A DNA stretch of 64,000 bases, taken from NCBI GenBank assembly GCA_947501555.1, contig CANMWG010000004.1, positions 248,001 to 312,000 of the forward strand. Reading direction: 5' to 3'. The notes under the pieces were generated by a model. It was not told where the DNA came from and ran no database searches. It saw only the letters and a program-made list of their open reading frames with translations. Both the position numbers and the translations under genes were made by a program. This stretch comes from an uncultured Paracoccaceae bacterium (GTDB taxonomy: Bacteria > Pseudomonadota > Alphaproteobacteria > Rhodobacterales > Rhodobacteraceae). Shown here in pieces: positions 40,067-64,000 of the stretch. Position 1 is the first letter of the stretch, and the number at the start of each line of letters is the position of its first letter.

Positions 40067-40069
40067 GGA

Positions 40070-43388: not shown

Positions 43389-43413
43389 ATTCCCTCGCGA
43401 TAGCGTAAGCGGG

Positions 43414-43433
43414 GGCACCCGAACCCGGATGCC
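43414..43433 (-). other. Hairpin between binding-protein gene and livG
   Basis: On the minus strand GGCATCC, loop GGGTTC, GGGTGCC form a 7-bp stem with one G-T pair. No T-run follows, so it is not a full terminator. Such hairpins after binding-protein genes commonly protect the upstream message and lower the level of the downstream membrane parts. Confidence 0.5.
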
Positions 43434-43449
43434 GCCAAGCGTTTTTTGA

Positions 43450-44730: not shown

Positions 44731-44774
44731 TTTCGTTCCTCCCTAATCCAGCGAATGCGCCGGTTCGTGACCGC

Positions 44775-46490: not shown

Positions 46491-46494
46491 GGGA

Positions 46495-47684: not shown

Positions 47685-47802
47685 GGATACAAGTCCTCTG
47701 TTCACTGCGGTGGCAGTGTTTGTTTGCGCTCAGTTGTCAGGTCGGCCTCCCAGCCCTCTACTGTTTTTGATACACACGCACCGCATAGCGGTCAATAAAT
47801 TA

Positions 47803-47831
47803 ATTGCGATACAATTCGGATGTATCGCAAT
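47803..47831. promoter_or_regulatory. Perfect inverted repeat, candidate IclR operator
   Basis: ATTGCGATAC (47803-47812) and GTATCGCAAT (47822-47831) are perfect 10-bp arms around a 9-bp spacer. The site lies in the 213-bp region between the divergent cyclase operon and the iclR-type gene, 67 bp before the regulator start. A dimeric regulator such as the neighbouring IclR protein is the natural candidate. Confidence 0.8.
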
Positions 47832-47897
47832 GCGGGTTGTATTGACATCCTGCGTCACAAACGTATGACTGCGATCAGACACAGGCGTGGAGTTCCG

Positions 47898-48671: not shown

Positions 48672-49516
48672 TCGCGACCACGCCGCCACATGAACGTATC
48701 GCTGTTTTTCGTGCGTTTGGCGCGTAAGTTGCAGATCGCATAGATGGACACAAAAACGACCGAGGAAAACGGTGTTTTCAGTAGTCCCAATGCGTTTCGA
48801 AACGACTTATTGCGCTCTGTATCGTTCGCGATCATCTGCGGGTATTGCTCGGCCAGTTCCATGTTGCCTTCGCTCCAACGATGCCTCACGTGGACAAGAT
48901 TTCCAAACCCTTCAGGCAGGGGCCAATCATAGGTGGCTTTGGTCTTGCGACGTTCGTCAGAAGAAAACTGCAGCCGCACAAAACGGTCATCCGAATAAAT
49001 CTCGGGGAATTCATCCCACCGGGCACGGCCAAGCGCATTCATCGCATAAAGACCAATCCCCGGGACGCCGTCTTTTACAAAGGGCAGACCGGTCCAAACT
49101 TTGGCATAGGCACGACTGACGATACTTTTGGGGCGGGGAATATTGATGGTCCCGCTGGCATAAAGCGGCGTGTCCTTTGATAGAATATCGGCCAGTTCAA
49201 CAAGCAGGCCCGGAGAAATCACAACATCCGCGTCCAAATAGGCACGTGTTCCATAGCGGGCCACTTTGTCAGCCTCGTTCAATGCGTTCATCTTATTGCC
49301 CTTGGCGATATCCAGAACGATCAACGCGAAACCAGCATCTTTCAGCTGTGGCTCCATCGCACGGGCCTTGGCAACGGTGCTGTCTTTGCACCCGTTTGCA
49401 GCAACAATAACCTGAATTTCATGTGCCTGCGGCAGACCTGTCTGTGCGACGATCGCGTCCAGACAGGCGCCAATATAGTTTTCTTCGTTATAGCTGGGGA
49501 TGATGACTGATAGCAT
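48668..49516 (-). CDS. Glycosyltransferase family 2
   Basis: The 282-residue enzyme begins with the GT-A motif LSVIIPSYNEENYIGACLDA. It has VIVAANGCKDST and the metal-binding DXD-like YLDADVVIS (about residue 94). A later acceptor-side ED-type stretch is YSDDRFVRLQFSSDERR. One hydrophobic segment lies near the C-terminus (SSVVFVSIYAICNL). It is the left end of the glycan locus. The donor and acceptor sugars are unknown. Confidence 0.88.
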   Translation of the reverse strand: MLSVIIPSYNEENYIGACLDAIVAQTGLPQAHEIQVIVAANGCKDSTVAKARAMEPQLKDAGFALIVLDIAKGNKMNALNEADKVARYGTRAYLDADVVISPGLLVELADILSKDTPLYASGTINIPRPKSIVSRAYAKVWTGLPFVKDGVPGIGLYAMNALGRARWDEFPEIYSDDRFVRLQFSSDERRKTKATYDWPLPEGFGNLVHVRHRWSEGNMELAEQYPQMIANDTERNKSFRNALGLLKTPFSSVVFVSIYAICNLRAKRTKNSDTFMWRRGRD

Positions 49517-49582
49517 GTCTTGCCCTTATGACTTGTTTGAAATGTATACACTGAAATTGGCAATTGCTGCCAAATTAATACG

Positions 49583-50719
49583 CTAAGCGCGCAGCTTGGA
49601 CGTGCCCCAAGCGCGATGCTTGAAGCTGAGGAAATAGCGTTCAAATGTCCGAAAACTTGCCTCCGAAATCGCAATTGCAAGAAGGCTATAAACGACCAAA
49701 ATCACCCAATTTTGGTCCCCCATGCCAAGCTTGCCCAAGCCGACCTTGGCGATGTGCAACGCAATCAAATGATAAAGATAGACCCCATAACTGATCTCAC
49801 CAATGCGGACAAAGGGCCGGATCGTCAGTACGGGCCGTAGCACATGATCTTCCCTGACAACGATACTGGCCAACGCAACAGCCATAATCAGATGCATTAC
49901 AAGGTTAGGCCAACCGCGCACATCCTCTGGCAGCCATTGCAGTGATGCGAGCAGCACGAGAAACGATCCCACACAGACGTAGCTATTTCCGGTGCTGCCA
50001 CAAATCGCGTCAAAGCCTTTGCGGGAATGTAAAATCAAGGCAAGACCCGAGCCGATCAGAATCGGTGCATAGGTGGCATTGAACATGGCAAACCGCAGCG
50101 GCCCCGCTTCAATCGCGGCAATGCCAAGCGGTGTCAGCCAGCCAATTACCGCGATCACGTTCAAACCTATCGTAAAGACCAAAAACGGGATCAACAGGGG
50201 CCTTGGCAGCAGCATCAGCAACAAGGGCCAGACCAGATAATATTGCTCCTCAACCGCCAGCGACCATGTCGGATACAGCATCGGCATATGCTCGGGCAGA
50301 AAATTTGACAGGAACAAATAGTAGTAGGGCAGCTGTGCAAGATACTGGGTCTGCCCCTTCAGGCCGATATAATACAAGGCTACGGCGGTGATAACGAGAT
50401 AGTAGACCGGAATAATCCGCAAGAAACGTCGCCAATAAAACCCGCGCAAGGAAAAACTGCCCTTCGCGTCCGCCTCACGGAGCAAGAGCGTCGTGATCAG
50501 AAAGCCACTGAGAACAAAGAAGAAATCGACGCCGACAAAGCCACGGGTGAGTATCTGAGCTGGTGCTTCAATAGAGGTCCAGATCGGGGCGTGATGCCAA
50601 AGAATGGCAGCGATACAAACGAACCGCAAACCATTCAACGACCCAAAATGACTGGTAGATTTATACTGTAAATATGACTGCTCAATACTACGCGTCGACA
50701 TCTCGTTCGTCACACCCAA
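49583..50719 (-). CDS. Acyltransferase 3 family membrane protein
   Basis: This is a 378-residue integral membrane O-acyltransferase with about ten helices. It starts its domain with GSLNGLRFVCIAAILWHHAP (catalytic-type His) and continues GFVGVDFFFVLSGFLITTLLL, both hallmarks of the family; TWSLAVEEQYYLVWPLLLML follows. Such enzymes add acetyl or succinyl groups to exopolysaccharide or lipopolysaccharide. It lies 66 bp upstream of the GT2 gene on the same strand, with a MITE beyond its start (70 bp). Confidence 0.92.
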   Translation of the reverse strand: MGVTNEMSTRSIEQSYLQYKSTSHFGSLNGLRFVCIAAILWHHAPIWTSIEAPAQILTRGFVGVDFFFVLSGFLITTLLLREADAKGSFSLRGFYWRRFLRIIPVYYLVITAVALYYIGLKGQTQYLAQLPYYYLFLSNFLPEHMPMLYPTWSLAVEEQYYLVWPLLLMLLPRPLLIPFLVFTIGLNVIAVIGWLTPLGIAAIEAGPLRFAMFNATYAPILIGSGLALILHSRKGFDAICGSTGNSYVCVGSFLVLLASLQWLPEDVRGWPNLVMHLIMAVALASIVVREDHVLRPVLTIRPFVRIGEISYGVYLYHLIALHIAKVGLGKLGMGDQNWVILVVYSLLAIAISEASFRTFERYFLSFKHRAWGTSKLRA

Positions 50720-50789
50720 AACCCGTTCAATACAAATAACTCGGGCACTTATGACATGATTCCAGCCTTCGACCTATACCTGATGACAG

Positions 50790-51057
50790 CTAGGGTCAGG
50801 ACCAATTAATCTTGCACCGTCAGCGGCGATTTCACGAAATATCAGTGGCTCGCGTCGTGCGGCCATAGTTGTTCTACGGCCAAGCGGCGCGAGCCTCTGA
50901 GATGAAGTGAAATCTTCGCCCTCCGGGTTTGGCGGATTTTCCCTCTGAGCAGCGGCACATCTGCTTGAAATAGAACCACTATTCTTGCGCAGATACTTCT
51001 TGTCAGAGAAAAAATCTGACAAACTTACGGTGTAAGATTAATGGGTCCTGACCCTAG
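50790..51057. mobile_element. 260-bp MITE, copy 2, inverted relative to copy 1
   Basis: The element spans 50794-51053 between CTAG repeats at 50790-50793 and 51054-51057. Its 30-bp ends (GGTCAGGACCAATTAATC; GGTCAGGACCCATTAATC read inward from the right) and its interior match copy 1 at 21002-21269 over the full 260 bp with scattered substitutions, in the opposite orientation. The open frame inside (MSDFFSDKKYLRKNSG on the minus strand) is the same passenger frame as in copy 1. No transposase is present. Confidence 0.88.
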
Positions 51058-51181
51058 GGTGCCGCAGGCAAGAACAATGGGGTTTGGAACTTGACGTAGG
51101 TGCAGCTATGATCGGCCAGCGCTTTTTTGAGAGTAACCAGGATAAACATTTCTTATCCGCGTTGACAGATTGGATTTACGA

Positions 51182-51907
51182 ATGACCGTTGCACATGAGA
51201 TGCTAGACGCCTACGGCCCTTTGGTTCTGATCAACCTGCCGGAACGGGCCGACCGCCGGTCAGAGTTTGCGGCGCAGTTGGCGCGCGTCGGGCTATCCTT
51301 TGATCATCCAAACATCCGCATTTTTCCCGCTATCAGACCGGAAAAGCTTGATGGTTTCCCAACTTTGGGTGCGCGCGGGTGTTTTCTGAGCCATCTCGAG
51401 GCGCTGAAGCAGGTCGCAGAGAACCAAGAGACCACCGTGATGATGTGCGAAGACGATCTGGATTTCGCGCCCGACTTCCTAGACCGCCTGCCCGCCGTGC
51501 TTGAGGTTCTGAAAACCACACCCTGGGATATGTTTTACGCAGGATATACGTCGCACCAAACAGGAGAGATGATTGATGCCGCAACCGGGCTCTTCCGCCT
51601 GCCTCGCGACCACACCTTCCAATGTTCACACTTCTACATCCTGAAGGGGGACATCATTCCGGACCTGATCGGATTTCTTGAACAAATCCTAGAACGGCCC
51701 GCGGGTCATCCTGACGGTGGGCCGATGCATTACGACGGGGCACTTAATCACTTCCGGGCAGCCAGGCCTGCGATGACCACGCTTGCGATCCTGCCAACTT
51801 TGGGCCTGCAGCGGCCATCACGGACGGATGTGCATGATCTGAAGTGGTTTGACAAAGTGCCAGGTGTCAAAAAAGTGGTGCAGTTGCTGCGGAAAGTGAA
51901 GCGATAG
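51182..51907 (+). CDS. Glycosyltransferase family 25
   Basis: ATG 51182 gives 241 residues; an in-frame TTG lies 12 bases before it. GT25 motifs are VLINLPERADRRSEFAAQL at the start, ARGCFLSHLEALKQ and the DXD-like MMCEDDLDFAPDF (about residues 85-95). Family members add galactose or glucose in lipopolysaccharide or surface glycans. The gene is opposite in direction to its neighbours and ends three bases before the convergent cpsD-like gene. Confidence 0.9.
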   Translation: MTVAHEMLDAYGPLVLINLPERADRRSEFAAQLARVGLSFDHPNIRIFPAIRPEKLDGFPTLGARGCFLSHLEALKQVAENQETTVMMCEDDLDFAPDFLDRLPAVLEVLKTTPWDMFYAGYTSHQTGEMIDAATGLFRLPRDHTFQCSHFYILKGDIIPDLIGFLEQILERPAGHPDGGPMHYDGALNHFRAARPAMTTLAILPTLGLQRPSRTDVHDLKWFDKVPGVKKVVQLLRKVKR

Positions 51908-51910
51908 GCC

Positions 51911-52777
51911 TTAGTACGATGTCTCTTGGTCCATATAGCGGCACTTATTCAGCATCACACCAAGGACGTTTGTTTGTGTGGCCAATTCCCGTTCACATTT
52001 ATCAATCTCTTTGACCGATGTGGCCTCAGCGGCGGCGACCAACAGAACACAATCAACCTGCCCGATAAACGCCATCGTGTCATCGCTGCTGAGCATCGGG
52101 GGCATGTCGAAAATTGTGATGTCGGGTTGGTAGCGTTCATCAATCTGCGCCAAGATATGCTTGGCAGTTGTGCTTTGCAGCAGTTCGGACGGATTGCGTG
52201 CCGGCGCATAGTTCATACCAAACGCAAGGTTCGGGCGGGGGCGCATCGCGACATCCGCAAAATTGGCAGTGCCATCAATCACTGACGAAAACCCGGCATT
52301 GCCCGTCAAACCAAATGTCTTGGCCATGGACGGGCGGCGCATATCCATTTCGGCAACGATTGTGAAACTATCGGCCTGCCGAGACAATGAAAACGCGAGG
52401 TTCAGAGCAACGGTCGTTTTCCCACAATCAGCGGACGGTGATGTAATCGCAAGCCGCTTCCAGTTATGCGCCCGCATCTGCTGCAGCACTTTGGTGCGTA
52501 ACATATCAAGCTCGACCGCACCGGGGGCCTTTTGCGCCCCGTCCTTGAAGCTGACGATCCGATTACGGGCCATGCGCCGATCCGTAGGGGTAAACGTCTC
52601 CAACGGCATCCAGACCATGGAACGGTCAATCGGCTGCGATGGCATGCTTCGGGTCAATATTCTTGATTGCTGATCAGATGATTTTGGGTACGGCGGAGGC
52701 GACGGATCGATTGGCCGTCTTTTCGCCTCCTCACGGGCGGCCCGGGCTTTTGCGATTGCGGCTTGAACTTTACTCAT
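51911..52777 (-). CDS. CpsD/CapB-type tyrosine kinase-like ATPase for exopolysaccharide
   Basis: This 288-residue cytoplasmic bacterial-tyrosine-kinase-type protein partners the Wzz-like protein encoded just upstream (15-bp gap). Motifs are Walker A ITSPSADCGKTTVALNL, Walker A' VAEMDMRRPSMA (Glu in place of the usual first Asp) and Walker B DITIFDMPPML. The C-terminal tail is short, with only two tyrosines (CRYMDQETSY), so tyrosine-cluster phosphorylation would be limited. It likely controls chain length or export. Confidence 0.88.
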   Translation of the reverse strand: MSKVQAAIAKARAAREEAKRRPIDPSPPPYPKSSDQQSRILTRSMPSQPIDRSMVWMPLETFTPTDRRMARNRIVSFKDGAQKAPGAVELDMLRTKVLQQMRAHNWKRLAITSPSADCGKTTVALNLAFSLSRQADSFTIVAEMDMRRPSMAKTFGLTGNAGFSSVIDGTANFADVAMRPRPNLAFGMNYAPARNPSELLQSTTAKHILAQIDERYQPDITIFDMPPMLSSDDTMAFIGQVDCVLLVAAAEATSVKEIDKCERELATQTNVLGVMLNKCRYMDQETSY

Positions 52778-52792
52778 CTCGCTTGCCCTTCA

Positions 52793-54361
52793 CTATGCCA
52801 GACCGACGCGTTGCAGCACATCATCGACGATGGGCTGCAGGGGCTGGATGTTTGTGTCAATGTACCAAAGCGCCGCTGGAACGCCGATTAAGACAGCGCC
52901 TATGGTGGCCGGAATGAAAAGGCGACGACGCCAGATTTGACCACGGGTCCGGATATAAGGAATGGTCATGATCGGGGTGATCTCCAGCCCCTCGATGATC
53001 TCTGCGGGTCTGCGCACAGCCGAGTTCAAAAACTCCAAGAGCGCGATAAACCCAAACCCCATGGCAAAGCCTGCAGCGATACCCATCGCAACAATGCGGC
53101 GACGGTTTGGTCGGGCAGGGCGTGTCGGCGGAATGGCCTCTTCGACGACTGTAATGCGTTGACCTTTTGACAAAGCTTCGATTGTGTCGCCGACTTCCGC
53201 CGTTGCCCGGTTGCTGACGGCCCGATCATACTGCGCACGCACGTTGTCAAAGTTCCGTTCCAGTGCCGCTAAGGTCAATGCGTTGCCTGGGGTCGCCGCG
53301 ATGGAGGTCGCCAACGTCGCAAGCGTTTCATTGATCAGTTCCTTTTGCTCGTCAATGAACGCGATCTGGCCCTCAATATCAGCAAGTTGTAATTCGAACG
53401 GGGTCAGCAGGGTGCCATCTTCATCGATTGCCGATGTGCCCTCTGCGGCCTGCTGTGCGGCAACGATACGCTCCAGTGCCGATATCTGCGCGCGTAAGAT
53501 ACCGATACGTGGATTGTCGTCAGACAAAACAGCAGAGGCGCGTGCAAGCTGATCCTCAAGATCTTGCAGCTCAGCCTCTTCGGCAGTGCGCGCATCCAAC
53601 CCAACAAGACCGACTTCACCGGTCTGTTCATAAAGTTCGATCAAGCGATCACGCCGATCACGAAGTTGGGTCTTGTCACGATCAAGCTCCAGCAACCGTT
53701 CTTGGGCGGCCGCTTGTTGAGAGCGCCGGAAATCAAGACTGTCTGGCAAGGCTTCTAAGTTGGCCTCTTGAAATGCCAGAATCTCTGCGCGCATCCGGGA
53801 CAATTGTGCTTCAAGTTGATCCGTTTCTTGCGCGAAGAAATCCAGAATTTGTCCAGAAACGGCTGTGCGCATCTCGATATTTTCTGCAACAATCAGGTTA
53901 ACAATCTCGTTGGCAAAATTTGCGGCCATAAAGGGTGACGGGGCATCAAAGCTAACGGTGACAATGATAGCGGTGGCCCGGCCGCCAACGATTGAGCCAC
54001 CGGACGTGAAGATGTTGATCCGATCACGCAGGTCTTGGATCTTTTCATCAGTGGTGCGTCTATTTCCGGCCTCTTCAACGCCATCATAGACGCCCAGCCG
54101 GTTTGCGGTTTCCATCAGGTTGTCGCGGGTGAAAATGCGTTGCTGAATGATTTCAAGCTGCTCGGACGCGTCAGTGCGGACGGTTGAGGCCGCCAAATCA
54201 TCCGGGATTTGCTGCGACTCGACGATTAGACGGGCCTCGGCCACATACGTGCGCTGTTGGGTCAAGGCGACCGTTAATCCCACCGCAGTGCCTAAGCATA
54301 GCAGAAACAGGAAATACGGAAATCGTCTCCAGAAAATTGCGAGATAGAACTTAAAATCCAT
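52793..54361 (-). CDS. Wzz/GumC-type polysaccharide chain-length protein
   Basis: The 522-residue inner-membrane co-polymerase has an N-terminal helix (about 13-32, FPYFLFLLCLGTAVGLTVAL), the Wzz domain (YVAEARLIVESQQIP, EIIQQRIFTRDNL), a long coiled coil (about 170-380), and a second helix near RRRIVAMGIAAGFAMGFGFI with a third hydrophobic stretch beyond (IPATIGAVLIGVPAALWY). The kinase domain is separate, encoded by the next gene. It lies 22 bp downstream of the ExeA-like ATPase. Confidence 0.92.
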   Translation of the reverse strand: MDFKFYLAIFWRRFPYFLFLLCLGTAVGLTVALTQQRTYVAEARLIVESQQIPDDLAASTVRTDASEQLEIIQQRIFTRDNLMETANRLGVYDGVEEAGNRRTTDEKIQDLRDRINIFTSGGSIVGGRATAIIVTVSFDAPSPFMAANFANEIVNLIVAENIEMRTAVSGQILDFFAQETDQLEAQLSRMRAEILAFQEANLEALPDSLDFRRSQQAAAQERLLELDRDKTQLRDRRDRLIELYEQTGEVGLVGLDARTAEEAELQDLEDQLARASAVLSDDNPRIGILRAQISALERIVAAQQAAEGTSAIDEDGTLLTPFELQLADIEGQIAFIDEQKELINETLATLATSIAATPGNALTLAALERNFDNVRAQYDRAVSNRATAEVGDTIEALSKGQRITVVEEAIPPTRPARPNRRRIVAMGIAAGFAMGFGFIALLEFLNSAVRRPAEIIEGLEITPIMTIPYIRTRGQIWRRRLFIPATIGAVLIGVPAALWYIDTNIQPLQPIVDDVLQRVGLA

Positions 54362-54383
54362 CGTTCACCATACACTTAAAATG

Positions 54384-55253
54384 TTAACTCGACAGAACAC
54401 CATCACTTTGTTCTTCCGATACTTTACCACTAAAAAATATGCCGTCGCGGAGAACCTGCCCCACGGTTGCTTCTGTCACTTCTTCAGCGTCATCAGTATA
54501 CGCGTAAAGTAAAGAAAAGTCAGACAGTTGATTGATCAAGCGCGGGACGCCGCCGGTTTCTTGGAAAATCTTAGCACAAGCTTCGGGCGTAAATATAGTA
54601 TATGTCGCGCCGGCAACCTTCATCCGGTGATGTATATAGTCAGCTGTAGCCACATCACTAAGCGCCGGAATGTGAAAGCTGGACGCGACGCGCTGGGCGA
54701 ACTGGGTCAGGTTGGGATGGCGCACATTGTCACGCAACTCAGGCTGCCCCACCAACACCAGCTGGAGCAGTTCATCTTTGTAAGAATTGATGTTCGTGAA
54801 CATACGCAACTCTTCCAAGCATTCCCGGTTGAGGTTTTGCGCCTCATCAAAGATCAGGACAACGCGGCTGCCTTCACCATATTGCTTAATCAGGAACTGT
54901 TCGAACTGACCAAATAGCGCGACATAGTCAGCATCAGGCGGGACCGGCTGATCCAACGCCTGAAGGACCCACCGCAAAAGCTCGTCTCGATTGCCCTGTG
55001 CGTTCGAAATCAGGCCGACCTGTAAATCATCCTCTAGCGCATTCAGCAGATGATGTAAGAGCGTGGTCTTACCAGAGCCAACTTCGCCGGTGATCAGGGT
55101 AATCGGCGCATGTGTCACGATGCCATATTCAAACATGGCGTATGCCCGCTCATGTACAGCTGACCAGAACAGATAATCGGGATCCGGCGCAAGGCTGAAC
55201 GGACGTTCATACAGACCAAAATGGTCAAGATAGATGTTGATCGCGTGCTTCAT
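54384..55253 (-). CDS. ExeA/GspA-like AAA ATPase of polysaccharide locus
   Basis: The 289-residue ATPase begins with the typical YLDHFGLYERPFSLAPDPDY. Walker A is ITGEVGSGKTTLLHHL (about 53-68) and Walker B VVLIFDEAQNLNRECLEEL (about 131-149). A sensor stretch LQLVLVGQPELRDN and the AAA lid GGVPRLINQLSDFSLLYAY follow. Similar ATPases are found in exopolysaccharide loci linked with exosortase A, next to Wzz, CpsD and an outer-membrane barrel, exactly as here. It starts the leftward operon. Confidence 0.88.
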   Translation of the reverse strand: MKHAINIYLDHFGLYERPFSLAPDPDYLFWSAVHERAYAMFEYGIVTHAPITLITGEVGSGKTTLLHHLLNALEDDLQVGLISNAQGNRDELLRWVLQALDQPVPPDADYVALFGQFEQFLIKQYGEGSRVVLIFDEAQNLNRECLEELRMFTNINSYKDELLQLVLVGQPELRDNVRHPNLTQFAQRVASSFHIPALSDVATADYIHHRMKVAGATYTIFTPEACAKIFQETGGVPRLINQLSDFSLLYAYTDDAEEVTEATVGQVLRDGIFFSGKVSEEQSDGVLSS

Positions 55254-55664
55254 CTAGGCCTCAATATATGCCGCAGATTAATCTGCAACCGCCCGTCAAC
55301 GAAGATTCGGCGTGACGCGGCTTTTATCTGATTACCCTATTTCAAGCCAGCGAAACGCCAAAAGTATGGAATAGCTGACTTAAAGTTAGGCAAGAAAAGG
55401 CACATATTGATGACCTAGGGGAAACAATGAGGAAAATTGCCCTTGATCAGCCCAGAATACGGCAACTTCTTCTGGAATAGTGTCAAAAATTCTATATTTT
55501 TATGACTTACGAATTGTTAACATGTATGAAGAAGCCGCGGCGCTGCTGCCGTGCTTTACACCGATCGATATCATTGAAGTCCGGGCATCATGTTGATGCT
55601 CACACAGTTAAGTAGGTGCTGCAATTTTCTGCGCACACGTAGTTAGAAACGAGTGAGTAATTAG
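55254..55664. promoter_or_regulatory. Divergent 411-bp regulatory region of the exopolysaccharide locus
   Basis: The region separates the ExeA-like operon (-) from the sugar-transferase gene (+). It holds a perfect 14-bp palindrome GCAGATTAATCTGC at 55273-55286, 20 bp from the ATPase start, and a hairpin GCATCA/TGATGC at 55585-55599. Two very short frames are present (17 codons from ATG 55427 after AGGGG, and 24 codons from ATG 55522). They are too short to call genes. It is AT-rich toward the middle, consistent with promoters. Confidence 0.55.
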
Positions 55665-56336
55665 ATGACAACTGAATTTTCTGAAGTTCCAAAGCATACA
55701 AAATCACGTCCTATCCAACTCCCACAAGAAGGCCCATACGAACTGGGATTGAAGCGCGTCTTTGACGTGGCCTGCGTTCTTTTGGCACTGCCATTCATCG
55801 TACCGGTGATTGCCGTCATGGCCCTCATGGTGTGGCTGGATGGGGGACCCGCATTTTATCGGCAAGATCGGGTTGGGCGTAACGGCCGGACCTACCAAAT
55901 CTGGAAGTTGCGGACGATGGTTCCAAATGCGGACAAGATGTTAAAGCAATATCTTGCAAGTAACCCCGAAGCGGCAGATGAGTGGGCACTCACCCAAAAG
56001 CTGAAGCGTGATCCGCGCATTACGAAGATAGGTGGCATGCTGCGCAAAAGTTCTCTGGATGAACTGCCGCAACTGTGGAACGTCTTTATTGGCGAAATGA
56101 GCCTCGTAGGGCCACGTCCAATGCTGCCAGAACAGGTTAGAATGTATCCTGGTCGCGCTTACTACACCCAACGACCTGGGATCACAGGACGGTGGCAAGT
56201 TTCTGAGCGCAACGAAAGCAGCTTTGCAGCCCGCGCTATGTTTGACACAGAATATGTGGCGAACATCTCATTTGCGAATGACTTGAAACTGTTGCTCGCT
56301 ACCGTTCGCGTCGTGCTCAAGGGAACGGGCTACTAA
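55665..56336 (+). CDS. Initiating sugar-phosphate transferase (ExoY/WcaJ type)
   Basis: The enzyme transfers a sugar phosphate to undecaprenyl phosphate and so starts the repeat unit. The 223-residue protein has one membrane segment (about 34-56, VACVLLALPFIVPVIAVMAL) followed by the catalytic domain. Family motifs are FYRQDRVGRNGRTYQIWKLR (with RTM), TKIGGMLRKSSLDELPQLWN, and VGPRPMLPEQ, plus RPGITGRWQVSERNE. The length fits the short ExoY class. The export gene follows 257 bp later. Confidence 0.93.
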   Translation: MTTEFSEVPKHTKSRPIQLPQEGPYELGLKRVFDVACVLLALPFIVPVIAVMALMVWLDGGPAFYRQDRVGRNGRTYQIWKLRTMVPNADKMLKQYLASNPEAADEWALTQKLKRDPRITKIGGMLRKSSLDELPQLWNVFIGEMSLVGPRPMLPEQVRMYPGRAYYTQRPGITGRWQVSERNESSFAARAMFDTEYVANISFANDLKLLLATVRVVLKGTGY

Positions 56337-56593
56337 GCCTGCGGTTCTCTCCGTAACCGGACATATCCGGTGTGCGTTTGGCGACTGTTTTAATGTGGAT
56401 GGCTTCGCATCCGCTATTGGTGTGTCTAAAGGTGACCAGTTCGCGTGTCGAAAAAACCAAGGAAATAAGGCGTAGTTCTGCTCGAAAACGCCACTTTCTG
56501 CGATTTCCTTTTGGTTATCGGTACTTTCAGGGTAGTATTCACCCTAATCGTGGGCTGATGGCCCAACCGTGTTTTGTAGATAGAGGCCATGTT

Positions 56594-57172
56594 ATGACCC
56601 GATTTGTTACCCTTTTGGGATCTATTCTTACTCTGATATTATTTTCTACAGTGACCGTTGCGCAAGGATACAGGGTGCAACCCGGTGACGTATTGCGGAT
56701 TGAAGTCGTTGAAGACGAAAGCCTGAACCGCACTGTGCTGATCTCCCCAGACGGAAGGATTTCGCTGCCCGGCGCCGGCGGATTGCGTGTCAGCGGGCTG
56801 ACAATCGAACAGATTCAGTCGACGCTGGCCGCACGCCTTGAATCGAGCTTTGTCAGCAGACCAAATGTCTTTGTGGGCATCGAAGGGCTTGCCCCTGAAG
56901 AAGATGACCCCGTCATCGAAATCTTTGTGGTGGGTGAGGCAACAACCGTTGGGCGCATTGAGCTTGAGCCAGGAACTGTGCTTTTGCAGGCCATCGCAGC
57001 CTTTGGCGGTTTCACAAACTTTGCTGCGACCAAACGGATCCAACTCCGCCGTGGCACTGATATTTATGCGATCGACTACAATCAGATCGTCGATGGCACC
57101 AGCCAAAATGGCTTGGTGCGCATGCATGAGGGCGACGTGATTGTCATCCCACAACGCAAGTTGTTCGAATAG
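56594..57172 (+). CDS. Polysaccharide export protein (Wza/OPX family)
   Basis: ATG 56594, with AGAGG eight bases upstream, gives 192 residues; an in-frame start 222 bp earlier adds unrelated sequence. A signal peptide (about 1-23, ending TVAQ) is followed by the Poly_export domain YRVQPGDVLRIEVVEDESL and ISPDGRISLPGAGGLRVSGL, and then a SLBB domain (EIFVVGEATTVGRIELEPGT). No lipobox and no C-terminal membrane helix are visible, so it needs another outer-membrane partner. The barrel protein encoded next is the natural candidate. Confidence 0.91.
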   Translation: MTRFVTLLGSILTLILFSTVTVAQGYRVQPGDVLRIEVVEDESLNRTVLISPDGRISLPGAGGLRVSGLTIEQIQSTLAARLESSFVSRPNVFVGIEGLAPEEDDPVIEIFVVGEATTVGRIELEPGTVLLQAIAAFGGFTNFAATKRIQLRRGTDIYAIDYNQIVDGTSQNGLVRMHEGDVIVIPQRKLFE

Positions 57173-57201
57173 GCGCTGGCACCCATAGGGGGGCGGTCTT
57201 C

Positions 57202-58434
57202 ATGAAGCAAAATGCAAGTCTTCTCATTCTGGCGGGGCTCTGGCCTGTCGTCGGCGTCGCGCAAGAGGCCGAACCAGGCGGGGCCTACGTGACCTTCGAC
57301 TTTGACCAAGCCTATGAAGCAAGCACTGACCGGGATCTCACGACCGTCGATGACGAAGATGGGTTTGACACGGTGACATCCTTGGGCCTCAGCGCCGTCA
57401 CCGAAACGCGTAGCCAACGGCTGTCTGCTGATGCAGCAACATCGCTGCGGCTCAGCGAAGGCGAGCAGTCATTCGAAGAGATCACCGGACGTCTGGCTTA
57501 CAGCCGTGAAAGTGCAGACGCCGCGTTCGATATCTCACTTGAGGCATTTCGCACGGACATTGCTTTCCTCCGCGATGTCTCGGATTTCATTGATGCGGAT
57601 GGTGAACTCGATCTGCCTGACGACTTTGGGGACCTTGTTGGGTCCGGCATCCGTAGACTGACCATCTTTGCCACAGGCCTTGAATGGGGTGAGACAGCAC
57701 CGGTCGGCTATGAGCTTTTCCTTAGTCTGCAAACATTGCGCTATGAAGATGCCAGCGCCGATCTTCTTGATGCGGACACTGGTATCGTTAGCGCTGGATT
57801 GCGGCTCAATCTGAATGAAGTCACCACCGGAAATATCTCCCTTGGTTTTTCTCAAACCGATGAGGTTGGAGAACCACTGGAGGAAAGCACAACACTCACT
57901 GGCGCATTGACCTTCGCGCGCCCATTAGGTGACCTGACCACAAGCATCAGCGCGACACGTGACGAAGAGGAGGACGTTTTCTTGTCCGCCTCAGTCGAAC
58001 GGGTCTATGCGTTGCCAAATAGCCGCTTGAACGGCGCGCTTGGGTTGGCCGAAGACGAAGGGGGTGAGGCCCGGCTCACCGCCGAGATTGGCTATAGTTT
58101 GCCTCTTCCCGAAAGCCAGATCGACCTCAGTGCAAATCATACTTTCACGCCCGGTGATGATCGGTCCAACACGACGCTGCGTGCTGGCTATATGCGCGGT
58201 CTTAATGAAGTAAACAGCATTCGGCTCGCTTTGGACTTCGCACAGGAAAGCGCCACAGACGGGAGCGATAGAATTGCGACGGGGACGTTATCTGCAAGCT
58301 ATGGGATCAGCCTAACTGATGTCTGGCAACTCGACATTGGCGCACAGACAAGCCGACGGGAGGATGATGGCGTGAGAACACGCAGCAACACAATCTTTCT
58401 GGCGATAGGTCGACCCTTCACGTGGCGCCGGTAG
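57202..58434 (+). CDS. Outer-membrane beta-barrel protein of polysaccharide locus
   Basis: The 410-residue protein has a signal peptide (about 1-20, ending GVAQ) and a mature part of alternating polar/hydrophobic strands rich in Thr, Ser, Asp and Gly, ending AIGRPFTWRR. It looks like a 14-18 strand barrel of the kind that accompanies OPX proteins without their own pore (for example TIGR03016-type proteins of exosortase-linked loci). It is 29 bp after the export gene. An export-pore role is inferred from shape and position; no clear motif exists. Confidence 0.72.
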   Translation: MKQNASLLILAGLWPVVGVAQEAEPGGAYVTFDFDQAYEASTDRDLTTVDDEDGFDTVTSLGLSAVTETRSQRLSADAATSLRLSEGEQSFEEITGRLAYSRESADAAFDISLEAFRTDIAFLRDVSDFIDADGELDLPDDFGDLVGSGIRRLTIFATGLEWGETAPVGYELFLSLQTLRYEDASADLLDADTGIVSAGLRLNLNEVTTGNISLGFSQTDEVGEPLEESTTLTGALTFARPLGDLTTSISATRDEEEDVFLSASVERVYALPNSRLNGALGLAEDEGGEARLTAEIGYSLPLPESQIDLSANHTFTPGDDRSNTTLRAGYMRGLNEVNSIRLALDFAQESATDGSDRIATGTLSASYGISLTDVWQLDIGAQTSRREDDGVRTRSNTIFLAIGRPFTWRR

Positions 58435-58547
58435 CGTCAGGCTCAGGGTTAGCTCATAAGTAATTGAATAATAATGGAAATTCTTATTTTGGCGGGGCGC
58501 ACCATGCAGGCGCGCCCGTGTCGAGATACTTATTGCGACCTAACGGC

Positions 58548-59426
58548 TCACTTCTCAAGCTTCAGGAAATATTCAAAAATCTCAGGAACGTTGCCATCCG
58601 CCAAGCCTGCATCAATAGCGGCTTTCAGATTGGACGATGTGCCTTCCGCGATGGCGGAACGCGTGCCCATGTCTGTGACCATCTGCACAAAGTAAGCGAG
58701 ATCCTTGTTGGCGTTGGCCACTGAGAACCCAAGATCGCTGACACCGTCTACTGCGTACTTCTTACAGAACTGCATGAACGGTGAATTCGATGGGCCCGCT
58801 GACATAATGTCAAACAACTGCTGGCGATCTACGCCCGCACGGTCCGCCACTGCAAAGGCTTGGCTCATGGCGCAAACGGTGGTCATGCCCATAAAGTTGT
58901 TGATCAACTTGGTCGTATGACCCGCACCAAGCGCGCCCACATAAAAGACATTCTCACCCTGAACATCCAAGACCGGCTTCATGCGGTCAAAGGTTGCTTT
59001 GTCGCCTGCCGCCATGATGTTCAGCAAACCGTCTTTCGCATGTGCCGGCGTGCGACCAAGCGGGGCGTCAAGCATACCGGCACCTTTGGCGGCCAAATCA
59101 GCACCGATTTTCTGGGTCGAAGCCGGAATAGAGGTGCCATAGTCAATCAATACAGCGCCTGGCTTGACGCCCGCCAAAATGCCGTCCTCGCCATAAACGA
59201 GGCTCTCGACAACCTCAGACGTCGTCACGCACAGCATGATGATGTCACTGGCCGCAGCAAGTTCGCGTGGGGTGCTGACCTCGGTTGCGCCGCGGGCGAC
59301 CGTTGCAGCGACGGCTTCCTTGTTGCGGCCCATGACGTTCAGCGCAAAACCGTTGTTTTGCAGGCATTCGGCCATGTTGCCCCCCATGAGACCGAGACCG
59401 ATGAACCCGATTGCTGGCTTTGTCAT
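58548..59426 (-). CDS. 3-hydroxyisobutyrate dehydrogenase-family reductase
   Basis: The 292-residue enzyme has the family's Rossmann start IGFIGLGLMGGNMAECLQNN, the substrate region DAPLGRTPAHAKDG in place of the commoner DAPVSGG, the catalytic Lys in GAGHTTKLINNFMG (about residue 171) and a helical C-terminal dimer domain. Members reduce tartronate semialdehyde, succinic semialdehyde or similar. It is last in the TRAP-transporter gene group and may process the imported acid. The altered DAPLGR stretch suggests an unusual substrate. Confidence 0.9.
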   Translation of the reverse strand: MTKPAIGFIGLGLMGGNMAECLQNNGFALNVMGRNKEAVAATVARGATEVSTPRELAAASDIIMLCVTTSEVVESLVYGEDGILAGVKPGAVLIDYGTSIPASTQKIGADLAAKGAGMLDAPLGRTPAHAKDGLLNIMAAGDKATFDRMKPVLDVQGENVFYVGALGAGHTTKLINNFMGMTTVCAMSQAFAVADRAGVDRQQLFDIMSAGPSNSPFMQFCKKYAVDGVSDLGFSVANANKDLAYFVQMVTDMGTRSAIAEGTSSNLKAAIDAGLADGNVPEIFEYFLKLEK

Positions 59427-59453
59427 ATCAAACTCCTAAACTTATGTTTCTTA

Positions 59454-59873
59454 TTAATCGTTGGTAAACGCATGAAGCCCCGCTTCAGCGACCTCTAAGT
59501 CTTGTGCCGGCGTTCCCGAACTGACGCCGATACCACCTACAACGTTGTCACCACAAAAAACCGGCAGTCCGCCCGCAATTGTGATCATTCTTCCGCCGAC
59601 GGTCGCAGAAATCCCATAGGCGGGTTTGCCCGGCTGGCTGGCGTTGCCCAGCTCGTGGGTGCCCTTCCGAATGCCGGTCGCGGTAAAGCTTTTGTCGATC
59701 GCCAGATTGACGCTAGGGATCTTGGCGCCGTTCATCCGCTCAAACGCAATCAGGTTGCCGCTTTCATCTGTCACTGCGATGCACATGGGTACACCAATCG
59801 CATGGGCTTTGGCGCGGGCGGCCGCGATCAACACATGGGCGTCTTCTATGTCGAGGCGCTGTACGGTCAGCAT
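59454..59873 (-). CDS. GlcG/HbpS-family protein
   Basis: The 139-residue protein belongs to the heme-degrading/GlcG family. Typical stretches are ALV-type start LDIEDAHVLIAAARAKAHAI, MCIAVTDESGNLIAFERMNG, KIPSVNLAIDKSFTAT and the C-terminal GGIGVSSGTPAQDLEVAEAG. Family members bind small organic acids or heme and are often beside glycolate or TRAP genes. It sits between the TRAP large permease (9-bp gap) and the reductase. Its precise job is unknown. Confidence 0.9.
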   Translation of the reverse strand: MLTVQRLDIEDAHVLIAAARAKAHAIGVPMCIAVTDESGNLIAFERMNGAKIPSVNLAIDKSFTATGIRKGTHELGNASQPGKPAYGISATVGGRMITIAGGLPVFCGDNVVGGIGVSSGTPAQDLEVAEAGLHAFTND

Positions 59874-59882
59874 ATCGTTGTC

Positions 59883-61196
59883 CTACTCAATGAACGTGTT
59901 GGGCATCAGTAGCCTTGGCAGCCACAACGCTATTTCGGGAAACAGGATCACCAACAGCAAGATGAACAGCATCGGCAGCAAAATGATCGCTACATCGCGC
60001 ATCACATTCACAACATTCAGGCCACCGATGGAGGCCGAAATCAGCAGACACAGCCCATAGGGCGGCGTCACAAGCCCAAAGGCGAGCGAGATAATCCCAA
60101 TGATCGCAAAGACTGTCGGGTGAATGTCCGCAGCCTGCGCGACGGGCAACAAAACTGTGCCCAGAATGATGATTGTCGGGATCGCGTCGATGAACAGCCC
60201 AAAGAACAAAAACAGTCCAGCGATGATCAAGGCGGTGCCAAAGGTGCCGAACTGCAGATCAACGATCAGGCCGACAATCAGGGCAGGCACTTTGTAGAAC
60301 GCCAGCAACCAGCCAAAGGCTGAAGCTGTCCCAATAGCGAACAGCGAAATTGAGGCGAAGCGACCGGTGTCATAAAAGATATGGCCCAAATCGCGCACAG
60401 TCACAGTGCGGTAGACGAACATGCCCAAAATCAAGGAATATCCGGCGGCAATAATGGCGCTCTCGGTGGGGGTCACAATGCCGCCTACGATGCCACCCAC
60501 AACCAGGATTGGGGTAAGTAAGGCCAGAAACGCGGCACGAAAGGCGTTCCAAAGCTCACAAAGCGTCGGAGTGCCGATGGTCGGATACCCGTAAACCTTT
60601 GCATAGCCATAGACCGTCGCCATCAATGCAAGTCCGATCATGATCCCCGGCGTCGCCCCGGCTAGAAATAGCGCCCCCACAGAGGTTTGCATCACACCGC
60701 CCCAAACGATCATCAAGATCGATGGGGGAATGATCACACCCATCACGGATGAACAGGCGGTCAAAGCCACGGCAAAGCGCGGGTCATAGCCTTCCTTGAT
60801 CATCGCTGGGATCAGGATTTTCCCACAACCTGCAGCATCCGCAGTTGAGGATCCGGATATGCCGGCAAACAGCATCGACACCGCCACATTCACATGGCCC
60901 AAACCGCCGGGCATCCAGCCTGTTAGCACGCGGGACAGCTCAATCAGCTTATCTGTGATCTTGCCGGAATTCATCAAATTGGCAGCCAGCAAGAAAAACG
61001 GAACGGCAAGCAAAATGAAAGAGTTGTAAGACTGGAACATCCGATCCAGCAAAATGAACGGGGTCAGACGCAAATCCAAGACGACGACGGGCACCGTCGC
61101 CAAGCCCAACGCGAAAGCCACCGGAATACGCAAGACGACAAGGACAATGAAGGCACCAACAAGAATGGTGCAGGCCAAGCCTGTGGAAATAATCAT
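59883..61196 (-). CDS. dctM: TRAP transporter large permease (DctM)
   Basis: ATG 61196, overlapping the dctQ stop as ATGA, gives 437 residues with about twelve membrane segments. A longer frame would add 24 residues inside dctQ. Family stretches are VPFFLLAANLMNSGKITDKL, GHVNVAVSMLFAGISGSSTA with DAAG, CSSVMGVIIPPSILMIVWGG, and PTIIILGTVLLPVAQ. It uses the sodium gradient to import an organic acid with the small subunit and the DctP protein. Confidence 0.94.
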   Translation of the reverse strand: MIISTGLACTILVGAFIVLVVLRIPVAFALGLATVPVVVLDLRLTPFILLDRMFQSYNSFILLAVPFFLLAANLMNSGKITDKLIELSRVLTGWMPGGLGHVNVAVSMLFAGISGSSTADAAGCGKILIPAMIKEGYDPRFAVALTACSSVMGVIIPPSILMIVWGGVMQTSVGALFLAGATPGIMIGLALMATVYGYAKVYGYPTIGTPTLCELWNAFRAAFLALLTPILVVGGIVGGIVTPTESAIIAAGYSLILGMFVYRTVTVRDLGHIFYDTGRFASISLFAIGTASAFGWLLAFYKVPALIVGLIVDLQFGTFGTALIIAGLFLFFGLFIDAIPTIIILGTVLLPVAQAADIHPTVFAIIGIISLAFGLVTPPYGLCLLISASIGGLNVVNVMRDVAIILLPMLFILLLVILFPEIALWLPRLLMPNTFIE

Positions 61197-61684
61197 AAGG
61201 TTTCTTTCGGTACGCGGCGGTAGGTCGCGATGGCTTCGAACAGACGATATCCTGCGAACAGGGTCCAAAGCGCCCCAGCAATTGGAACCGAAATATGGGT
61301 GATCAACATGTTGGCACGCATCATGGGTGAATTCTGGATGCTGCCGAATTTGGCGTATTCAATGCCGTAGACTGCGAACAACAGGGCAAAGGCCGTTATC
61401 AGCACCAAGACAAATCCATCCTGCAAAAGCTTCAGGAACGGGTGTTTGGCATCAGGAATAACACGCACATCAAAGTGGGTACCTTCCCAGACAGCAATGG
61501 TGGCACCGATCATAATAGCCCAGACAAAGATGAAAGTGGCCAGCTCTTCGGTCCATAGATAGACCGGAATGATGCCAGTGTAGCGTGCAAGGACCTGCAT
61601 CCCAACTGGGATCGCCAAAGTGGCAATCAAGAGGCCAAGCAGCAGGCGCAACACGTTGCAGAAGCTTTCAAGGATACGTTTCAA
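61193..61684 (-). CDS. dctQ: TRAP transporter small permease (DctQ)
   Basis: This is the four-helix small subunit of the TRAP importer, about 163 residues. Motifs are MQVLARYTGIIPVYLWTEEL and FVWAIMIGATIAVWEGTHFD, typical of DctQ. The start is uncertain. TTG 61684 is preferred because a longer in-frame TTG at 61726 falls inside a hairpin between dctP and dctQ, but its ribosome binding site is weak. The stop overlaps the dctM start by four bases. Confidence 0.85.
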   Translation of the reverse strand: MKRILESFCNVLRLLLGLLIATLAIPVGMQVLARYTGIIPVYLWTEELATFIFVWAIMIGATIAVWEGTHFDVRVIPDAKHPFLKLLQDGFVLVLITAFALLFAVYGIEYAKFGSIQNSPMMRANMLITHISVPIAGALWTLFAGYRLFEAIATYRRVPKETL

Positions 61685-61711
61685 AATGACGCTGCCAATA
61701 CAAATGAATGT

Positions 61712-61738
61712 CCACCGGCACGGCAACCGCGCCGGTGG
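61712..61738 (-). other. Intercistronic hairpin between dctP and dctQ
   Basis: CCACCGGC and GCCGGTGG are perfect 8-bp arms around an 11-base loop, ten bases after the dctP stop. There is no following T-run. It probably stabilises the dctP message so that binding protein exceeds permease, as in many importer operons. Confidence 0.6.
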
Positions 61739-61747
61739 ATGAAAAGG

Positions 61748-62743
61748 TTATTGCGAACGGATCGCTTCAAGAAGGTCGGATGCACCAAGCTCGGCTGCGT
61801 AAGCATCCTGCACTGGGATCACCATCTCAAGAAGCTGCTCACGACCGGCGAATTCCTGCACCTGGACCTGACCGGCATCGATCATTTCCTGCATCTTTTC
61901 GCCGTCCTGACGGCTTTCCAGCTCACGACCAAAGGCACCTGCCTGTTTGCCGGCCTCAAGAATGACGGCTTGCAGATCTTCTGGCAGCCGGCTGAACGTC
62001 TTTTCGGCCATCACAAGCGGGCGGACGGTGATCGCGTGACGGGTCAGGGTGATATTTGGGGCAACTTCATAGAACTTCAGGTTCTGGATTGAGGCCGCTT
62101 CGTTTTCAAACCCGGCAATCACACCCGTTTGGATCGCGTTATAGACTTCGTTGTAGGCAATCGCAGAAGGTGCGGCCGTCAGCGCATCAAAGATCTGCGC
62201 CTGGATTGGCGCACCCATCACACGCATCTTGTGTCCGGCCAATTCCTCAAGGTTCCCGATAGGCTCGGCAGAGGCAAGGTTACGGACACCGCCCCCGGCA
62301 TATCCGATAACGCGGATGTCGGCTTTTTCAAGCAACTCAGCCTCGAGAGGGGCCATAACACCACTGGCAAGGGCCTTGTCCCAGTGTTCCAGATCGCGGA
62401 ACAGGAATGGCATGTCCATCAATGGAATGGATGGGGCAAAGACGGCCATGTTGGACGGCGCCATGATGGCATAATCTACCGCAACGCCTTGCTGCAGGAA
62501 GGTGACAAAGTCGCTCTCATCGCCCAGCTCGCCATTGAGGCTGATCTCGAATGAGATATCGCCGTCGTAGCCTTCGGTTACAAGCTCTTCAAATTGGCGC
62601 AGCGTCTTAGTGTAGGCGTGCTCTTCATCAAATAGGCTTGCGCCGCGCAGATCGATGGATTGCGCTGATGTCGAAACAGCGGTGACAGCTGTCAAAGCAA
62701 TAGCGGTCGCGCAGGTCTGCGCAATCGATTTAAAGTGAAACAT
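61748..62743 (-). CDS. dctP: TRAP transporter substrate-binding protein (DctP)
   Basis: The 331-residue periplasmic protein has a signal peptide (about 1-28, ending STSAQ). Typical DctP stretches are LMDMPFLFRDLEHWDKALAS, IGYAGGGVRNLASAEPIGNL and GHKMRVMGAPIQAQIFDALT, with the carboxylate-binding Arg expected near KMRVMG. A strong GGGAGG lies before ATG 62743. It is first in the leftward TRAP group. The ligand is presumably a small carboxylate; the closest known specificity cannot be stated from reading. Confidence 0.93.
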   Translation of the reverse strand: MFHFKSIAQTCATAIALTAVTAVSTSAQSIDLRGASLFDEEHAYTKTLRQFEELVTEGYDGDISFEISLNGELGDESDFVTFLQQGVAVDYAIMAPSNMAVFAPSIPLMDMPFLFRDLEHWDKALASGVMAPLEAELLEKADIRVIGYAGGGVRNLASAEPIGNLEELAGHKMRVMGAPIQAQIFDALTAAPSAIAYNEVYNAIQTGVIAGFENEAASIQNLKFYEVAPNITLTRHAITVRPLVMAEKTFSRLPEDLQAVILEAGKQAGAFGRELESRQDGEKMQEMIDAGQVQVQEFAGREQLLEMVIPVQDAYAAELGASDLLEAIRSQ

Positions 62744-63169
62744 GATTTCCTCCCAGAAAAAGAACCCATTTGGTGGGTTGCTCGTCTGGAATACTAGAAT
62801 GCTTGTTGCGATGTCAACGTCGCGATTGACGGTACAATCCTAAGCTGAGGAAAAGAAAAGACCTTGTTTTCTTCTGCTACGCATCACGCAACCATACATA
62901 CGTCACATGTACAGTTTCTGTACGCAATGCATATGTCAAACAGGCGTCGAAATCCGCTTCTGATCCCGCTCCGCCTCGGCTATCAGGGTGGAACCACGGA
63001 CCTGCGCGCCTCGGCGGGCTTGGTCATATCGCGGCCTAGGGTAAGCCCAAAGCCGCACATGTCGTCAGCGGGCAAATTTTAGGTTGGGCCGTCACGCACT
63101 GAAAATTTGCTGTGTGATGATCCGGGTCTGCGCATTCCTCAAGCATCAAACAGGCGTCCTTGGCAGGGG
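62744..63169. other. Region between dctP and the bch remnants, no recognised intact gene
   Basis: The left part carries the dctP promoter region, with a small inverted repeat AACCCA/TGGGTT at 62763-62779. The right part (about 62940-63169) has codon-like composition on the minus strand but is broken by stops in all frames. It may be further decayed coding sequence following bchY. A 13-bp direct repeat TCAAACAGGCGTC occurs at 62936-62948 and 63146-63158. Confidence 0.5.
62909..62923. promoter_or_regulatory. Inverted repeat upstream of dctP, candidate operator
   Basis: GTACAG, TTT, CTGTAC form a perfect 6-bp inverted repeat about 165 bp before the dctP start. The spacing suits a dimeric regulator, but no regulator gene is nearby in the window and the distance is long. 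Confidence 0.35.
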
Positions 63170-63219
63170 GCTCAAATTTCTAGAAATTTGAGCGGGGCGG
63201 GAATTTTCTAGAAAATTCC
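63170..63219. repeat. Two adjacent perfect palindromes centred on TCTAGA
   Basis: The first (63170-63193) is a perfect 24-bp palindrome, with half GCTCAAATTTCT. The second (63200-63219) is a perfect 20-bp palindrome, with half GGAATTTTCT. Both have TCTAGA at the centre, and the centres are 28 bp apart. They lie just beyond the bchY remnant. They could be tandem operators, a cruciform-forming repeat or terminator-like structures. Confidence 0.75.
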
Positions 63220-63271
63220 GCATACCATCCGCTCCACTTTTGTGGCGTGGGCCTGCTTGTCGCACTTTTTG

Positions 63272-63386
63272 TTACGCCCGGAAATCAGGGTGTAGGTTGG
63301 GCGCGCCTTCCCAGATCCCTGACGCTTTCGTTTTTTCAACGGCGTCAAAGAACGCGCGTCATACCTTCGGTGATCTGGGCTAAGCT
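63272..63386 (-). pseudogene. bchY: 3' remnant of bchY (chlorophyllide reductase subunit Y)
   Basis: Only the end of bchY remains. Reading leftward, SLAQITEGMTRV in one frame is followed, after a single-base frameshift, by AFFDAVEKTKASGIWEGAP and NLHPDFRA in another, ending at TAA. This matches the C-terminal end of BchY from memory (SLAQ..., AFFEGV..., W..TPKLYPEFRE). The bulk of bchY, well over 400 codons, is missing between this piece and bchX, which normally precedes it. The stop falls where BchY normally continues with a short basic tail. Confidence 0.78.
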
Positions 63387-64000
63387 GATCGTCGGCGCCG
63401 TTGTCCTTGGCCAATCCAACTAACGTCGAACCCCATTGGCTCTCATGGGTGCCAACAACCTGATAAGTCGCGCTCTTTTTTCTTAGCTCGTCGTCTTGTG
63501 GGATTGCAGCAAGGACAGGAATGCCAACTGCCTTGGCGAAAGCTTGGGCTTTGCCTGTCCTGTCATCTTTATTAACGACAAGTCCGGCGACCCCAACATG
63601 ACCACCAAGTTTGCAGAAGTATTCGACTGCGGAGCAGACATTGTTAGCAACATAAAACGATTAAAGATCATTTGATCCCACCAAGATAACTTTCTGCGCC
63701 ATATCACGCGCAATCGGCAAACCAAAGCCGCCGCGAACCACATTACCTAAGAAATCCGGCGGGACATGGTTAAGGTCCCAGTCATGGAAGCCCAATTTAT
63801 CAAGTAATTCAAAGCCATGGGTGATTCCACGACCATCACGCCTGCGACCAATTCCGGGCGGGCGTTTCAATTATTGTCGGACAGGCCTTGCCTCCAAAAA
63901 GAAGGCTGGTTGTGTCAGACTTAGGATCGCAACCGATTAACAATACGCGCTTACCCATGTCAGCCATCATATGGCTGAGGTTGGCGAGCGTGATTGATTT
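63387..64000 (-). pseudogene. bchX: Decayed bchX (chlorophyllide reductase iron protein), partial
   Basis: Reading leftward from the window edge: KSITLANLSHMMADMGKRVL, LIGCDPKSDTTSLLFGGKAC and PTIIET match BchX, a NifH-like iron protein. About 35 residues are then lost with a frameshift near 63855-63865. The frame resumes as GRGITHGFELLDKLGFHDW and GGFGLPIARDMAQKVILVGS. A TAA at 63661-63663 replaces the Gln after GSNDL, and then YVANNVCSAVEYFCKLGG and IPVLAAIP continue in frame. Both cluster-binding cysteines are changed (GRGCGGRG to GRRRDGRG; VVCGGFG to VVRGGFG). The gene cannot make a working protein. The 5' part lies outside the window. Confidence 0.9.

Follow-up and report, generated by a model that had tools for sequence, protein, structure and literature searches.

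The last bases of the stretch of DNA analysed here (the window, 64,000 nucleotides) were read in an initial annotation, at 63272-64000, as decayed bacteriochlorophyll genes, with a broken bchX joined by deletion to the end of bchY. Such a fragment may mean that the strain has lost phototrophy or may be a dead second copy, and the question is which of the two the genome supports. The host genome (G000; 4.53 Mb, 21 contigs, 99.58% complete) is taken to belong to the genus Yoonia, and we refer to its source as a Yoonia-type bacterium. Window position 1 corresponds to C4:248001; contig C4 extends 9 kb beyond the window end, and the locus L005 covers C4:308001-321086. Very probably, the fragment is the scar, left in place, of a photosynthesis gene cluster that had been passed down vertically, and this bacterium has lost phototrophy. 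Judged from the DNA, the scar is direct evidence for phototrophy lost, as opposed to phototrophy never possessed.

The operon relic and its neighbours

The relic lies on the minus strand and extends from window 63069 to ~64400, ~400 bases beyond the window end (window numbering continued). It thus exceeds the annotated interval and includes pieces of crtE and pufQ (Table 1). It is collinear with the operon crtE-crtF-bchC-bchX-bchY-bchZ-pufQ, with several genes in the same order and on the same strand, and at least four internal deletions separate its 1.3 kb from the ~7 kb of the operon. Along the minus strand from L005:4399 to window 63069, the pieces are crtE, the N-terminal part of bchX, the rest of bchX, the end of bchY with the bchY-bchZ gap, and the end of pufQ. 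The last bchC codons seem to persist upstream of the N-terminal part of bchX, whose alignments with L024, L025 and L027 begin 37 bp further upstream. The relic lacks crtF with almost the whole of bchC, ~85 bp of bchX, the bchX end with most of bchY, and bchZ with most of pufQ; no trace of pufBALMX or of the cluster dxs was matched in the relic. Against the intact L054 (genome G008), bchX aligned in two DNA blocks (81% over 435 bp, E 9e-117; 78% over 283 bp, E 5e-63), and tblastx lengthened the bchY-end relic to 63358. The E-values exclude a chance origin for bchX and crtE, and the short pieces gain weight because all five blastn blocks are collinear with the operon in order and strand. The initial reading of a fossil photosynthesis cluster, drawn from the order bchX-bchY, is borne out by these five blocks, as is the placing of the last bchY codons after bchX. 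Gene names in the intact clusters come from profile matches for crtC, bchC, bchX, bchY, bchZ, pufL, pufM and dxs; the names crtE, crtF, crtD, pufQ, pufB, pufA and pufX are assumed from gene position, the intact crtE matching general prenyl-synthase models and crtF matching BchU, both below cut-off.

Table 1 Position of the relic pieces, their surroundings and the further scars (window numbering unless a contig or locus is named)
Feature	Position	Strand	Evidence or remark
crtE relic	L005:4172-4399, beyond window	-	blastn against intact relative, E 5e-31
bchX relic, N-terminal part	63858..64000, on to L005:4146	-	72-80% DNA identity to congeners
bchX relic, middle and C-terminal part	63376..63859	-	up to 82% DNA identity to intact congeners, best E 9e-126
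bchY last codons and bchY-bchZ gap	63201..63321	-	blastn 69%, 126 columns, E 1e-8
Two adjacent loopless perfect palindromes, former bchY-bchZ gap	63170-63193 and 63200-63219		12- and 10-base arms
pufQ 3' end relic	63069..63132	-	blastn 81%, 64 bp, L054:14124-14187, E 5e-12
puf-side flank, clpA block	17424..33650		matches G051 C3:242983-223835 in pieces
Extra stretch between clpA block and relic, ~29 kb	33651..63068		without match to the compared 60 kb of the G051 locus
Other flank	66.2-72.9k (numbering continued)		matches G051 C3:207.4-200.1k
bchP last 14 codons and stop	20434..20478	+	tblastn E 4e-5
idi (isopentenyl-diphosphate isomerase), intact	20475..21005	+	NF002995 139.7 bits, cut-off 127
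Block 2 scar	C4:23.0-24.6k, 288 kb from the operon relic		flanks match G051 C9:152.6-156.3k and 183.6-192.3k

The decay of bchX is extensive. The BchX profile TIGR02016 matched two pieces in different frames, C4:311382-311858(-) with 203 bits and one TAA, and C4:311854-312033(-) with 83 bits; no full-length BchX frame above the cut-off (331.2 bits) is present in the relic. The TAA replaces a Gln codon at window 63661-63663 (DLQSLY to DL*SFY), and the halves on either side of the ~85-bp deletion lie in different frames. Of two cysteines that we take to be cluster-binding, the second is replaced by Arg (VVCGG to VVRGG), and the codon of the first is not preserved and falls in the damaged junction; the P-loop in the N-terminal part is also altered (GKGGIGKS to GKCGIGKS). 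All the damage to BchX described at the outset (internal deletion with frame change, stop for Gln, loss of both cysteines) was therefore recovered. With misaligned junction columns left out, and at codon positions where 30 intact genes show no variation, the relic is changed at 16/176 first and 10/200 second positions; single intact genes treated in the same way are changed at a mean of 0.26% of first and 0.21% of second positions, with a maximum of 4/180 and 6/206 in G030. These changes show that bchX has been free of constraint over much of the branch. The description of the loss as fairly recent is apt in a relative sense, but the substituted invariant positions and the disappearance of most of the cluster speak against more. 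That the cluster is alive and only looks broken through faulty sequencing or assembly, an idea to which a draft of 21 contigs might lend some colour, is hardly credible: kilobases are gone at three places, there are scattered stops and frame changes, substitutions affect invariant sites, and PufLM is absent from an assembly of this completeness.

The relic occupies the place of a cluster that is intact in the phototrophic congener G051, where it lies on contig C3 between the same flanks; the flank matches between the two genomes are mostly 71-81% identical. The extra stretch on the clpA side appears, by reading of its frames, to hold exopolysaccharide-type genes and a TRAP transporter. On the other side of the relic, G000 carries a DUF3500 gene and a second frame. 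The DUF3500 gene seems to have been inserted beside the relic because its copy in G006 adjoins no cluster gene; it was rejected as a synteny marker, with strong matches in just two of 55 congeners (G006 83%, G025 74%), weaker ones in four more, and no cluster genes at the G006 copy. In the bchX tree the node of the relic is weakly supported (44/76), and its placement differs from that of G000 in a two-gene species tree; the case for vertical descent therefore rests on synteny and not on the bchX tree.

Scars of the two other blocks and the search for a functional copy

By its coordinates, the intact G051 cluster measures ~45 kb in three blocks of ~16, 27 and 3 kb. Block 1, which the operon relic represents, comprises crtC, crtD, crtE, crtF, bchCXYZ, pufQBALMX and dxs in intact relatives. 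Block 2, on C9 of G051, extends over tspO-crtBI, bchIDO, a cytochrome gene, hemA, puhE, acsF, puh and bch genes, and ppsR; tspO, crtB, crtI, bchO, hemA, puhE, acsF, ppsR, puhB and puhA were identified, and its further frames are presumably crtA, bchI, bchD, puhC, lhaA, bchM, bchL, bchH, bchB and bchN. Block 3 consists of bchG, an MFS gene and bchP ahead of idi (bchG and bchP profile-confirmed) and is equivalent to window 19.7-20.5k.

Both further blocks have left scars in G000. A search with 20 kb of block 2 found C4:23408-24266 and otherwise hemA-like paralogues or repeats, and C4:18.8-33.4k is collinear with both sides of the block in G051. The scraps at this site are tspO' with a stop (E 5e-22), hemA' in two pieces with a stop (E 3e-23), ppsR' in two pieces (E 2e-25 and 2e-16) and puhE'; a reversed-sequence control gave no match at the site. 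Amid them, a c-type cytochrome frame is intact, above the Pfam cut-off and below the NCBIfam CycA cut-off, which we take to be cytochrome c2 (cycA). Other matches of the block 2 query (hemA paralogues, a repeat in the bchD region and one near query 13200) were dropped. At block 3, the 3' end of bchP was recovered in a 31-aa tblastn match whose final 14 residues fit at 13 of 14 positions; the reversed window gave no bchP. The idi gene that follows is 83% identical to that of G051. Matches to bchG and the MFS gene in the window (E 0.13-0.95) were dropped. The bchP stop overlaps the idi start identically in G000 and G051, as might be expected if scraps were retained for a function, for example the bchP and hemA tails as leader or spacer of kept genes. 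We consider such retention unlikely, given that the bchX pieces are without constraint and are interrupted by a stop and a change of frame, and that hemA' and bchP' in the congener G034 hold stops.

No functional counterpart was found in the genome, including in the search for intact bchX, bchY and pufLM that had been proposed with the initial annotation. The profile TIGR02015 detected no BchY, and PF00124 detected no PufLM, which is present in 33 of the 56 genomes of the genus. A TIGR02016 search for intact BchX or BchL returned, beyond the two relic pieces, a single 24.5-bit match of a kind common in congeners; since BchL scores ~175-188 bits with this profile in phototrophic congeners, G000 appears to have no BchL. 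BchP was matched at noise level alone (E 5.6e-4 or weaker). A dxs-like match and a hemA-like match lie elsewhere in G000, at C2:538421-540217 and C1:1112874-1113591, respectively.

These results bear directly on the idea of a dead second copy, or of a broken fragment acquired horizontally, that would be unrelated to the strain's own phototrophic history. A study of Rhodobacteraceae reports transfer of whole clusters (PMC6052148), the cluster of the phototroph G008 has different neighbours outside the clpA neighbourhood and so shows that a cluster can move, and the bchX tree gives the relic no firm position. Nevertheless, the relic shares its neighbours with the intact G051 cluster, blocks 2 and 3 are scarred at their own orthologous places, and a functional first copy was found nowhere in G000. 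We regard a second or acquired copy as very improbable and favour the first option of the initial annotation, loss of phototrophy.

We propose a plausible course for this loss, of which the order of events and the cause, like the exact number of losses in the genus, are what we infer. Very probably, an ancestor lived as a phototroph that used bacteriochlorophyll and carried its photosynthesis genes in three blocks. The breakage of a single essential gene may have released the pathway from selection, and point mutations at all kinds of site together with many separate small and medium deletions could then have accumulated. What the sequence shows as the outcome is, for block 1, 1.3 kb of collinear scraps that still lie between the original neighbours, for block 2, scraps surrounding an intact cytochrome gene, and for block 3, 14 codons ahead of intact idi. 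A single excision is disfavoured, since in G000 blocks 1 and 2 have each left pieces from five places. Genes likely to serve outside photosynthesis as well would have been kept, namely the cytochrome gene and idi, which presumably have such roles, and genes with a second copy elsewhere, the dxs and hemA of the cluster, would have been lost.

Losses in the genus and in other lineages

PufLM is encoded by 32 genomes with BchX above cut-off and by G017. G041 (81% complete), in which block 2 genes are present and BchX and PufLM were not found, was counted in neither group; the remaining 22 genomes, G000 included, are non-phototrophs, and the cytochrome site was read in 21 of them (G035 left out). 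Scraps of hemA and bchP lie at the same places in G034 and G047 as in G000 (BchP was searched in ten genomes). G034 holds hemA' with two stops (E 5e-23) and, ahead of idi, a 77-aa bchP' that is interrupted by two stops (E 2e-17); G047 holds a hemA' tail (3e-6), tspO' (5e-6) and, ahead of idi, a bchP' of 75 aa (1e-22), and the bchP' breakpoints differ between the two. In G037, a bchO tail was matched at noise level (0.005) in the right place. This match and a ppsR tail in G034 (0.001) rest mainly on place and strand, because reversed controls of the cytochrome-site scan also gave two matches, at other sites (G046, E 0.002; G025, E 0.006). At the cytochrome site of the other 17 non-phototrophs nothing convincing was found.

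Several candidates were dropped: puhC matches in G047 and G037, probably to a neighbouring secretin-type gene; weak cytochrome-site matches in G004, G039, G007 and G038 (E 0.004-0.01); dxs matches at query 11.0-12.8k, which are the housekeeping copy; matches of 56-65 bp in seven genomes at query 976-1040, for the most part adjoining dxs and probably to a housekeeping prenyl synthase; and matches of 36-53 bp in G048, G052 and G034 and of 101 bp in G041.

The nearest sampled relative of G000, the non-phototroph G006, carries no relic at the sites read and no idi or bchP in the two stretches scanned, and is thus no help in dating the loss. Scanning the fetched sites of G006 and G048 with cluster proteins (tspO was a query in the cytochrome-site scan and not in this one) revealed no relic and one bchO match of 25% identity, elsewhere in G006.

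The block 1 site is empty in 10 of 21 examined non-phototrophs, with 10-61 bp between the flank matches; in the fetched stretches of the others, one flank was found in two and neither in nine. The gaps measure 13, 61 and 57 bp in the likely losers G034, G047 and G037, and 10-53 bp in seven scarless genomes. This resemblance is what would be seen if, in some losses of the genus, the cluster region had been replaced by the empty-site allele of non-phototrophic relatives, erosion being visible elsewhere. Such replacement seems rather unlikely, although less so than retention of the scraps for a function: G000 itself was eroded piecemeal, the gap sequences of the three differ by eye from those of the seven, and selection to keep both neighbour genes would likewise yield small gaps.

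A clpA+rpoB tree (37 genomes, two genes, no outgroup) places G000 with G006, G048 beside the phototroph G050, and both G047 with G037 and G034 among phototrophs, where G048 is likewise nested. The clpA of G033 is in two pieces with a TAG (C2:3084153-3086478), and its rpoB is split as well, so that an assembly error is likely there. With the root placed on eight scarless non-phototrophs, Fitch parsimony requires four changes. G034, G047 and G037 were counted as one loss because a single common loss was not rejected by the AU test (p-AU 0.27). At least two losses within the genus are demonstrated by scars, one in G000 and one in G034/G047; G048, in which no scar was seen, adds a third from the tree, and a fourth would follow if the loss in G034 was independent of that in G047 and G037. 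More broadly, non-phototrophs nested among phototrophs may be ex-phototrophs in which the same selective erosion repeatedly erased the three-part cluster and spared the cytochrome gene and idi, a generalization that we consider about as likely as not.

Loss of the photosynthesis cluster is already known as a phenomenon. For Citromicrobium JLT1363, whole-cluster loss has been inferred, and the case is similar in that a phototroph and a close chemotroph share the same flanking gene organisation; the site there contains one hypothetical gene, and the argument for loss was that the trees are congruent (PMC3338782). In contrast, broken gene pieces remain at three places in G000 and similarly in at least two congeners. 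Patchy phototrophy in Rhodobacteraceae, the same family, has been discussed as repeated loss versus repeated transfer from comparison of trees, and reconciliation of trees was used to infer the losses; the main text of that study (PMC6052148) contains none of the words pseudogene, remnant and relic, whereas the scars described here are physical evidence of individual losses. Non-phototrophic Acetobacteraceae also keep remnants of ancestral photosynthetic traits, which, as described in part of that report, are retained traits and genes (PMC10715153), unlike the decayed fragments in original gene order in G000. The full-text literature searched, which leaves subscription journals mostly outside, yielded no account of pseudogenes of the cluster in Yoonia, nor of scars recurring within one genus. 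Scars at orthologous sites are direct evidence of loss in individual lineages and display a ~45 kb cluster decaying piecemeal and in place. They also point to where other genomes might be inspected, beside the cytochrome gene and ahead of idi; if our reading is correct, scars at these two places turn "absent" into "demonstrably lost" and could settle gain versus loss without trees.

Palindromes and repeats

Although in dead DNA, both palindromes of the former bchY-bchZ gap are still perfect. Palindromes with arms of at least 9 and a loop of at most 4 number three in the window (the third at 40150) and 0-1 in four Markov controls. The intact gap holds two palindromes of other sequence in L051, L053 and L054, one in L056 and none in L057 and L059; two or more palindromes with arms of at least 7 occur in 12/80 loci, compared with 2/425 random 130-mers.

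Beside the pufQ relic, the exact 13-base direct repeat TCAAACAGGCGTC occurs at 62936-62948 and 63146-63158, with a one-mismatch copy at 28246; it is possibly a deletion footprint. A stretch of ~80 bp in the bchD region (L062:2055-2139) has matches of 80-89% at dispersed positions in G000 and several non-phototrophs and is possibly low-complexity sequence or a mobile element. A TPP riboswitch lies at window 33694-33783 (67.5 bits), and the G051 match ends just short of it at 33650. A MITE-like repeat of ~270 bp with inverted ends is present at window ~21003-21278 and 50790-51058 in opposite orientation (95% alike), and a 92% copy in G006 (L110:11502-11775) adjoins the flank where block 1 would be.
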